Shown: piece by piece, positions 2,258 to 39,058 of the stretch | Numbering within the stretch: the first letter of the stretch is position 1 | Layout: each line of letters opens with the position of its first letter | Origin: Effusibacillus dendaii | GTDB lineage: Bacteria > Bacillota > Bacilli > Tumebacillales > Effusibacillaceae | DNA length: 64,000 nucleotides | Assembly: GCF_015097055.1 (NCBI RefSeq) | Contig: NZ_AP023366.1 | Coordinates: forward strand, 2,250,001-2,314,000 | Direction: 5' to 3' | Program-made: the position numbers and the translations under genes | Notes under the pieces: model-generated | What the model saw: the letters and a program-made list of their open reading frames with translations, nothing else | Database searches by the model: none | What the model was told of the DNA's origin: nothing

Positions 2258-2390
2258 AGTTAGTGCTTCAGCACTTACTGTGAATGGATCCCGTTCCACA
2301 GGAATCGGGATTTCCTTAAGAATCAATCTGGCTCCCTACACGATTCAGTTTTCAAAGAACGACTTAGATCACGGATGATCTATCCCGCGT

Positions 2391-2408
2391 GTTGACATGG
2401 ATGTCAAC
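2391..2408. repeat. 18-bp inverted repeat in rrn leader (GTTGACAT-GG-ATGTCAAC)
   Basis: Two perfect 8-bp arms flank GG. On the minus strand the first arm contains a consensus TTGACA, so it may be a -35 element or an operator. Read as plus-strand RNA it is a 6-bp stem with an AUGGAU hexaloop, the same loop as in the 38 kb hairpin array. Function is unknown. Confidence 0.55.
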
Positions 2409-2466
2409 GTTCTTAGCGGGGTTTCCTTATCTAATTGTGCTTAGCGTTGCTTGTGCCCCTCGGGTG

Positions 2467-37313: not shown

Positions 37314-37961
37314 TTACATGGCGGCTTGCGCACTCAAGACTTGAAAAATCTCCTGCAGTTTTTCATTTTTGGCAAGTTTCCTCCGCACCCGAGTCAATGC
37401 GTTATCAACCGCTTTGCGGCTGGGAAGCTCCAAAATAGATTGAATTTCCATATGACTGCGTTCTTCAAAATAGAATAATACCAGACAATTATATTCCAGC
37501 GGAGTTAAATTTTCATTCTTTAAGATTAAACGGATACTTTGCAAAGAGTCTTTACGTAAAAGGATTTGGTAAGTCGATTTGCTAGGTCGATCGATAACCC
37601 CCTCTATATACGAGGTGTCATTGACCGTTCCCTCTTCATTGACCGTCGGACCGTCCAATCGCATGGCGGTTCGATTTGGCACATTGGCCTGGCCATAGAG
37701 CCGTCTTAACCTGGATTTGATATGGTTTTCTACAGTCAGTTTACAATAAGAGAAAAACGACATCTTTCCGGTTTCAAACGATTTTACCGCATTCCACACT
37801 TCAATCCGAGCCCATTGGAATACTTCATCCCTGTCGGCCATCCAAGAGGCATATCGATGAGCAATACGACGACACATAGGCTCTACCCGTTTTAACGTCT
37901 CCTGAAATGCATATTCACAAGTTTTGGCTTGTACTGCAAGTTCGTTTAAATCCACAGACAT
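37314..37961 (-). CDS. Orphan sigma-70 family RNA polymerase sigma factor
   Basis: A 215-aa protein with region 2 at about 25-95 (RRIAHRYASWMADRDEVFQWARIEVWNAVKSFETGKMSFFSYCKLTVENHIKSRL has the region 2.1-2.4 pattern; shown only as landmarks) and a region 4-type HTH at about 155-205 (LTPLEYNCLVLFYFEERSHMEIQ, then AVDNALTRVRRKL). It lacks a region 3 of SigF/SigG type, and no anti-sigma gene adjoins it. The start is the ATG at 37961, with GAGGAGG upstream; the longer frame runs through a structured non-coding segment. B. subtilis has no sigma gene between pth and ctc. Regulon unknown. Confidence 0.85.
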   Translation of the reverse strand: MSVDLNELAVQAKTCEYAFQETLKRVEPMCRRIAHRYASWMADRDEVFQWARIEVWNAVKSFETGKMSFFSYCKLTVENHIKSRLRRLYGQANVPNRTAMRLDGPTVNEEGTVNDTSYIEGVIDRPSKSTYQILLRKDSLQSIRLILKNENLTPLEYNCLVLFYFEERSHMEIQSILELPSRKAVDNALTRVRRKLAKNEKLQEIFQVLSAQAAM

Positions 37962-38195
37962 CCTGATTTCCTCCTCTCTAAAGAAAACTTGGCTTCGCCA
38001 ATCTAAGCACAGGCGAGAGCCTAGGCTGTCTTGCGCATGGATGCGCTGATACCGACGTGCGACGACCATGGACGGTCTAGTGTCGACGATGCAACATGGA
38101 CGTTGCGTTTTCGTCGACCGACAAGGATGTCGCGCTTTGAGTCGGCCTTCCTCTATGTCGATAGGGAAAAATTTATAAATACCTATCAAAAAAAC

Positions 38196-38212
38196 TGACG
38201 AATCATGTCGAA
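38196..38212 (+). promoter_or_regulatory. Tandem Spo0A-box-like sequences upstream of the sigma gene
   Basis: TGACGAA (38196-38202, 6/7) and TGTCGAA (38206-38212, 7/7 to the 0A-box core) lie 10 bp apart, about 30 bp upstream of a minus-strand TATAAA (38172-38177). The arrangement would suit Spo0A control of the sigma factor transcript. No good -35 is seen. Confidence 0.4.
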
Positions 38213-38312
38213 TTCACATTACTTTTAATGTACATGCAGATATGGCAAGGGAAACAGGTGCGAAAAGACTGGATTCAGCAAAATCCATAGGACTTTTGAT
38301 TTATTTTTTTAT

Positions 38313-38332
38313 AGGTCTAAAGACCTTTTTTT
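38313..38332 (+). terminator. Plus-strand intrinsic terminator with no plus-strand ORF before it
   Basis: AGGTC (38313-38317), loop TAAA, GACCT (38322-38326), then TTTTTTT. It points away from every annotated gene nearby, so it implies a plus-strand non-coding transcript. Confidence 0.65.
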
Positions 38333-38341
38333 GACTGCAAT

Positions 38342-38370
38342 AAAAAAGATCGCCCATAAAAATGGCGATC
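38342..38370 (-). terminator. Intrinsic terminator of rplY/ctc
   Basis: GATCGCC (38348-38354) pairs with GGCGATC (38364-38370), followed on minus by TTTTTT. Confidence 0.87.
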
Positions 38371-38407
38371 TCATCGTATTCCTTTATGTTAAACTCCTAA
38401 ATTCAGT

Positions 38408-39058
38408 TTACTCGTGAGCCCCTGGAATTTCATGTGCCCCTACCCCTTGTCCTTCTGTATCATGCACAAGTTCCGGCTCCTTTGGAACAATTTCTGTATC
38501 AGGCTCTGCATTGTCCGCCGGAATGACTCCCACCACAACCTCTTCCAGATCCGAAATCAGCTTGCTGCCGGACGGAATCGGCAAGTCCCTGACACGCAGG
38601 TTGTCGCCGGCATGCATCCAAGAAATATCGACCAGAATTTGATCCGGGATGTCCATCGGACGGGTGCGCAGAATCACTTCCCGCATCTGCTGTTGGATTA
38701 TAGCGTCCCTTTTTTCCACTTCCTCAAGGCCATTTAAGTAAATCGGAACTTCCACATCAATCATTTGATCCATGGAAACGGCATACAAATCAATATGTAG
38801 TACTTTCCGGTTAATGGGTTCTCTTTCCATGTGTCGGATCATAGCATGAACCGTTTCGCCGGAAAGATTCAGTTCGACAAGTCCGTGACCTTTGCGAGCC
38901 ACAATTTTTTTTAGCGATTCCGGATGAATGACAATAGGTGTAGATGTGATAGTGGGTCCGTATAAAATACCCGGCACGCCGCCCTCCCGTCTGATCCGAT
39001 TGCGCTCGCATTTCGTTAATTTGGTACGGAGACCAGCTTCAATGGCCAGTTGTTCCAC
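38408..39058 (-). CDS. rplY: 50S ribosomal protein L25, Ctc form
   Basis: Binds 5S rRNA; in B. subtilis Ctc is the general-stress version. The 216-aa protein has the L25 beta-barrel (about 1-95: RREGGVPGILYGP, HAMIRHMEREPINRKVLHIDLYAV) and the C-terminal TL5/Ctc domain (IYLNGLEEVEKRDAII... GDNLRVRDLPIPSGSKL), ending in an acidic tail. It starts at GTG with GGAGGGG upstream. It lies next to prs as in B. subtilis, with the prs terminator between. Confidence 0.95.
   Translation of the reverse strand: MEQLAIEAGLRTKLTKCERNRIRREGGVPGILYGPTITSTPIVIHPESLKKIVARKGHGLVELNLSGETVHAMIRHMEREPINRKVLHIDLYAVSMDQMIDVEVPIYLNGLEEVEKRDAIIQQQMREVILRTRPMDIPDQILVDISWMHAGDNLRVRDLPIPSGSKLISDLEEVVVGVIPADNAEPDTEIVPKEPELVHDTEGQGVGAHEIPGAHE

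Follow-up and report, generated by a model that had tools for sequence, protein, structure and literature searches.

Related families and repeats

Bacillaceae-1 (RF01690) and TwoAYGGAY (RF01731) are the described RNA families closest to the element presented here, and the literature on them is reportedly the work of Gardner and Eldai and of Weinberg et al. UCC-loop double hairpins are the sequence complement of CsrA sites. A modular build is known from the BOX elements of pneumococcus. Both RNA families are tabulated in the available part of a 2010 paper (PMC2864571). In 2014 TwoAYGGAY and the reverse complement of Bacillaceae-1 were proposed to bind CsrA in Clostridia, Bacillales and Lactobacillales, and the discoverers were described as unsure of the strand of Bacillaceae-1 (PMC4333381, accessible part). 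Excerpts of two further papers give eight Bacillaceae-1 structures for B. subtilis (PMC8208703) and the CsrB repeat as CAGGA(U/A/C)G (PMC7652899). The accessible portions of PMC4333381, PMC2864571, PMC9029176 and PMC8208703 report no experiment on either family.

The locus analysed lies in a stretch of 64,000 nt of the Effusibacillus dendaii genome (contig NZ_AP023366.1, positions 2,250,001 to 2,314,000), called the window below. Features are numbered from the first letter of the window; six- and seven-digit positions are those of the genome. An earlier note, made from these letters alone, had read an array of four plus-strand hairpins with ANGGAN loops as an RNA that sequesters CsrA.

The element has features in common with each of the described systems. 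Two hairpins with RUCCU-like loops, the leading AGAGGAAG, the outer stem and the CUAA and AACG internal-loop bases are shared with Bacillaceae-1, but in the window copy the unit is divided by a 59-bp insert that has two hairpins of its own; this copy also lies between two repeat modules, A and B, and stays below the family cut-off. Hairpins 2 and 3 of the window align to the two AYGGAY hairpins of TwoAYGGAY on the plus strand, although the score is 20.1 bits against a cut-off of 43 and the flanking stem is unmatched. Several GGA-loop hairpins on one strand are also found in the CsrA-binding sRNAs of the CsrB/CsrC/RsmZ type; unlike these, the window array has no visible transcription unit of its own, is part of a dispersed repeat and has its flanking genes on the other strand. 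The BOX elements are likewise interspersed, modular, stem-loop-forming and present in many copies, but by their description they differ in sequence and hosts.

The hairpin array

The four hairpins can be read directly from the sequence:

38033-38046, plus: hairpin 1, GCGC-ATGGAT-GCGC; loop AUGGAU on plus, AUCCAU on minus
38064-38077, plus: hairpin 2, GACC-ATGGAC-GGTC
38091-38106, plus: hairpin 3, GCAAC-ATGGAC-GTTGC
38119-38132, plus: hairpin 4, CGAC-AAGGAT-GTCG

They are present where the earlier note had placed them, and their number is above the chance level. When the 100 bases of the array were shuffled 20,000 times by dinucleotide, no shuffle reached four ANGGAN hairpins (maximum 2), and the plus strand of the whole window contains nine such hairpins with 4-bp arms, compared with 0-4 in 20 shuffles. 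The constant loop on changing stems, on which the note had built its case, is also real, and ANGGAN-loop hairpins with changing stems recur in other Firmicutes. In all the loci gathered, 17 distinct ANGGAN hairpins with 7-bp arms were counted against 0-3 for ten control loops, an excess that is biased upward, since the loci were partly chosen for matching the element or RF01731. The fixed loop on changing stems is explained as the signature of a known family, Bacillaceae-1, together with a related insert. A local duplication of one hairpin was rejected as the origin of the array: the hairpins have unlike stems and flanks, and the units are also present at other places.

In the bare 100 bases, hairpins 1-3 are predicted to fold on both strands and hairpin 4 mainly on minus (0.27 on plus vs 0.98 on minus). 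In the context of the element (37979-38195), the mean pair probabilities of hairpins 1-4 are 0.11, 0.08, 0.999 and 0.001 on plus and 0.999, 0.83, 0.998 and 0.70 on minus; plus folds only hairpin 3 as drawn, and minus folds all four.

Anatomy of the locus

The features of the locus, and one related unit elsewhere in the window, are as follows:

2366..2432, minus: a further Bacillaceae-1-like unit, scoring 32.6 bits (cut-off 35); the 16S rRNA, on the same strand, lies just over 100 nt downstream
37314..37961, minus: sigma-70-like factor gene; Pfam region 2 above cut-off, region 4 below; the start at 37961 was chosen by us
37979..38031, minus: module A of the dispersed repeat (TAAAGAAAACTTGGC...), from own-genome blastn and printed copies; outer ends approximate
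38001-37989, minus: 3' end of module A, where a T-rich tail comes after the terminator-like hairpin TTGGCGAAGCCAA (terminator pattern)
38033..38061, minus: Bacillaceae-1-like (RF01690) 3' part, with hairpin 1, from alignment to the paralogue at 2515866
38062..38120, strand unassigned: 59-bp insert with hairpins 2 and 3, from alignment; resembles the TwoAYGGAY core on plus
38121..38157, minus: Bacillaceae-1-like 5' part (AGAGGAAGGCCGAC...GCGACAUCCUUGU) with most of hairpin 4, from alignment
38157..38187, strand unassigned: module B of the dispersed repeat, palindrome GTCGATAGG...CCTATC, from blastn and printed copies
38313..38332, plus: terminator-like hairpin, pattern only
38408..39058, minus: rplY (ribosomal protein L25/TL5), the upstream gene on minus

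Read along the minus strand, palindrome B is followed by a Bacillaceae-1 double hairpin with RUCCU-like loops, split by the 59-bp double-hairpin insert, and then by module A with its terminator-like hairpin. The window copy itself gave no match to the RF01690 model up to E = 10 (cut-off 35 bits), and the uninterrupted unit of about 67 nt that is typical of the family is broken by the insert. The RF01690 search of the E. dendaii genome returned 33 matches at E <= 10, of which 17 are above the cut-off. Among them are paralogues of the array, matched on the strand opposite the GGA loops at 2515897 (50.3 bits), 1940861 (36.8 bits), 2506229 (26.5 bits) and 1120060 (25.1 bits); the last of these has the insert of the window. 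There is no insert in the paralogue at 2515866, the alignment reference, which scores 50.3 bits, and the 36.8-bit paralogue does not have the full insert. Aligned with these model-matching sequences, the minus strand of the window becomes a Bacillaceae-1 unit interrupted by 59 bases, with hairpins 1 and 4 as the two hairpins of the family, both on one strand and in the family order. Judged by these alignments, the array is firmly identified as a split Bacillaceae-1 unit on minus, with membership judged through the paralogues.

The boundaries of the insert are ambiguous by a few bases, and at one edge it takes in the first two bases of hairpin 4. By blastn, a 63-bp stretch that spans the insert (38060-38122) is also present in the genome at 1238842, 2317019 and 2479623 with 98% identity, and hairpins 1 and 4 are absent from these copies. 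The best RF01731 match in the E. dendaii genome reaches 22.3 bits (E 0.9). When other known Rfam RNAs were sought in the window at the gathering threshold, only the 16S and 23S rRNAs were found. Two of the nine plus-strand ANGGAN hairpins of the window, at 2367 and 2393, come from the complement of the Bacillaceae-1-like unit in the 16S leader.

A scan of both strands of the locus for promoter patterns, limited in the types of pattern covered, gave no match and thus does not discriminate between the strands. The terminator pattern near 38313-38332, which the earlier note had named as the end of its RNA, is present.

The dispersed repeat and the empty site

A blastn comparison of positions 37962-38410 with the E. 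dendaii genome gave 60 matches, including the query itself. Three further copies are nearly full (182-227 bp; 87, 92 and 89% identity), and many matches consist of the two ends only. In the printed copies, a core of about 94 bp is formed by module A and palindrome B, the latter with variable stems, and a variable middle lies between them. Module A is laid out as TAAAGAAAACTTGGC, four variable bases, GCCAAGCC and so on; by eye, the pairing of its variable loop with the downstream partner is imperfect, and a literature search for module-A strings gave no match. The modules recur in the genome in different combinations. The opinion that the hairpins were selected as RNA and are not a DNA repeat is therefore wrong in its second half, since the stretch recurs round the genome.

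Tandem A-B arrays were observed in E. dendaii (locus L071, positions 197-518, from 1287296, with a 94-bp period) and in genome G006 (locus L101, positions 1501-1741, about 92 bp).

The A-B core was matched in 29 of 151 genomes, E. dendaii included, and the middle block of the window in five of the 151, namely E. dendaii and four weak matches. The exact module-A pattern was found in at least 120 stretches; Desulfosporosinus, Aneurinibacillus, Pseudalkalibacillus and Salinibacillus are among the matches listed. In Desulfosporosinus and its relatives, the middle blocks of A-B elements at nine loci contain other ANGGAN-type hairpins; their stems are unrelated, and they point either way with respect to module A. 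The 24 A-B copies of E. dendaii have both neighbours on minus in 10 cases, both on plus in 4 and another arrangement in 10.

The interval between the sigma-factor gene and rplY was compared with that of three congeners (G001, G002 and G003). These intervals align with that of the window and share the conserved blocks that lie right of the element there (for example TGACGAAA..TGTCGA); the element itself is missing from them, and no ANGGAN or NTCCNT hairpin with 4-bp arms was found in them. By subtraction, the gap is 446 nt here vs about 206-286 nt in the three congeners. As judged from these alignments, the element at this site is thus a lineage-specific insertion, and the covariance model of the pth-rplY interval that the earlier note had suggested building from relatives cannot be built. 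A conserved sponge gene in this interval was rejected, no array being present in the three congeners. The divergent sigma-70-like factor encoded between pth and rplY has 88-91% identity in three congeners, and the next long match is 36% (61 genomes).

The repeat has both the many copies and the empty site in relatives that mark a dispersed mobile-like element. Copy number, mosaic structure and empty site together suggest that it is, or has been, mobile.

Orientation and folding of the copies

The surroundings of 104 RF01690 copies from six genomes were tabulated (E. dendaii 27 of 33, G143 27 of 33, G013 35 of 35, G062 7 of 7, G070 5 of 5 and G026 3 of 3); the E. dendaii rows left out are three tandem copies and three without loci. 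An rRNA or tRNA is no more than about 160 nt away from 62 of the copies, 61 of which are on the strand of the RNA, that is, with UCC loops, and the rRNA-operon rows among these are not independent, as they share operon sequence. The E. dendaii loci were checked with cmscan. The lone antisense copy, at 321058, is located in a tRNA cluster. A tRNA or 5S gene follows 37 of the sense copies and starts no more than 4 positions from the last base of the unit in 28 of them; three more are the first of a tandem pair. In E. dendaii, five Bacillaceae-1 copies abut 5S, seven are upstream of 16S (which starts 2-152 positions on), and others are inside tRNA clusters. In G013, 34 of 35 copies are found beside rRNA or tRNA, all on the strand of the RNA and often abutting tRNA or 5S.

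Among the 41 protein-flanked RF01690 copies no bias toward the UCC orientation was found: 12 lie between two UCC-strand genes and 17 between two GGA-strand genes (E. dendaii 5 and 2, G143 4 and 11). One copy, 579 nt from 16S, falls in neither class. This pooled count lowers the confidence in a minus-strand reading and raises that in a sponge.

For RF01731, contexts were obtained with a simple ORF finder at 38 loci of eight genomes (30 of the 41 matches of one search and 8 from a longer list at E <= 10; loci L238 and L240 and those of E. dendaii are not included). Of 36 cases, 26 have UCC-strand genes on both sides and 5 have GGA-strand genes on both sides. On the right, 31 of 37 neighbours are UCC-strand genes (31 to 6, p = 4e-5), and 13 of these 31 loci are 20-38 nt from the stop codon of that gene. 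As the neighbours are mostly on the UCC strand, the strand given for TwoAYGGAY in Rfam may be reversed. Of 12 middle-block copies in E. dendaii, 6 are flanked on both sides by UCC-strand genes and 2 by GGA-strand genes. Nine genomes of Desulfosporosinus and other Firmicutes were searched with RF01731, and seven of them have 11-29 matches each at E <= 10.

The folding energies of RF01690 conflict with the evidence from orientation. The UCC strand is lower in energy at only 4 of 37 loci, and the hairpin probabilities are similar (0.835 for UCC, 0.816 for GGA). For RF01731 there is a weak lean the other way, the UCC strand having the lower energy in 21 of 29 (p = 0.13) and the higher hairpin probability in 35 of 48, with means of 0.948 and 0.952. 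The folding of the window copy favours minus, and its paralogues differ among themselves. Counts of G-U pairs gave no strand signal (4 vs 3; 46 vs 45).

Occurrence with csrA

The csrA gene, on which the CsrA reading depends, is present in the genome (92.9 bits at 2725774), and from ORF reading its neighbours look like fliW and hag. A csrA match was found in 33 of 34 genomes with RF01690 vs 65 of 117 others (Fisher p = 1.2e-6; phylogeny ignored). The A-B core, which is without the array hairpins, has a weaker link of the same kind (27/29 vs 71/122, p = 2e-4). In genomes with multiple RF01731 matches whose loci were reached, csrA occurs in 6 of 7, G152 being the one without it. The single RF01690-positive genome without a csrA match is G003, a draft of 420 contigs.

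Interpretation

We propose, at a probability of about one half, that the locus contains a composite hairpin cassette in a dispersed, mobile-like intergenic repeat, and that its working RNA strand, if any, is minus. The element would have inserted into the leader of the sigma-factor gene, which on minus would hold it, and would be carried in minus-strand transcripts, where read-through into that gene could be reduced by its hairpins and terminator-like end. A double hairpin of this kind in a stable-RNA operon would be co-transcribed with rRNA and tRNA, often at the 5' edge of the mature RNA, and it would most likely serve as a folded segment of the precursor that a protein or nuclease recognises and that is then trimmed away. 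Such a role could make the insertion of a double hairpin harmless or even useful. The GGA loops on plus would be the complement and not the working strand.

A plus-strand RNA with GGA loops that titrate CsrA, acting from this locus or as dispersed UTR sites, is possible but doubtful. Hairpin 4 does contain ACAAGGATGT, within the SELEX consensus RUACARGGAUGU, and the complement of common Bacillaceae-1 hairpins (ACGTCCTGT, ACATCCTGT) contains CAGGACG and CAGGATG, as in the CsrB repeat. The co-occurrence with csrA points the same way for both families, but it is uncorrected for phylogeny and appears also with the A-B core that has none of the hairpins. Among RF01690 copies flanked by protein genes the GGA strand is somewhat favoured (17 vs 12), and this strand is usually the lower in folding energy, yet the copies near stable RNA are UCC-sense in 61 of 62 cases and RF01731 is mostly codirectional with its neighbours on the UCC strand. 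At the locus itself, both flanking genes are on minus, only one of the four GGA hairpins folds on plus when the element context is included, and the three congeners have no such array. A sponge of about 375 nt on plus, as in the earlier note, that would occupy a conserved pth-rplY interval is not supported, because the array is part of a dispersed repeat, is absent in the three congeners, contains a Bacillaceae-1 unit on minus and is flanked by genes on minus. A dedicated CsrA-soaking RNA at this locus is not the likeliest reading. The more general likeness to CsrA-binding RNA survives, in that CsrA binding is proposed in print for both of the Rfam families that the array resembles (PMC4333381, accessible part).

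There are two further explanations. That the repeat is purely a selfish DNA element, its palindromes serving mobilisation (for example, by a transposase acting on folded single-stranded DNA) with no role as RNA, is unlikely. Mosaic copies, tandem arrays with a 94-bp period (L071), the spread over Bacilli and Clostridia, strands free of G-U asymmetry and protein-gene copies free of orientation bias would all suit such an element, but the nearly complete sense orientation and the abutment to the 5' ends of mature RNAs look linked to RNA, and the loops are kept on changing stems across genera. Even less probable is an attenuator in the leader of the sigma-factor gene, in which the minus-strand hairpin of module A would be an intrinsic terminator, used or not depending on adjacent sequence. 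In favour of it, the terminator-like hairpin with its T-rich tail ends near 37980, just upstream of the ribosome-binding site; however, the element is a lineage-specific insertion absent from three congeners, and the 24 A-B copies of E. dendaii stand at unrelated genes in several orientations.

It would also be conceivable, as a long shot, that mobile UCC-loop double hairpins, transcribed along with rRNA and tRNA, pair loop to loop with GGA hairpins in the mRNAs that CsrA targets and thereby counteract or adjust its action. If true, this would make the UCC-sense orientation of the copies in stable-RNA operons compatible with the presence of csrA in the same genomes.

Bacillaceae-1 and TwoAYGGAY are dispersed, many-copy elements in the genomes examined. 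The present survey makes the 2014 proposal of CsrA binding testable for these two Rfam families, and B. subtilis, a laboratory organism with eight Bacillaceae-1 structures (PMC8208703, excerpt), would be suited to it.
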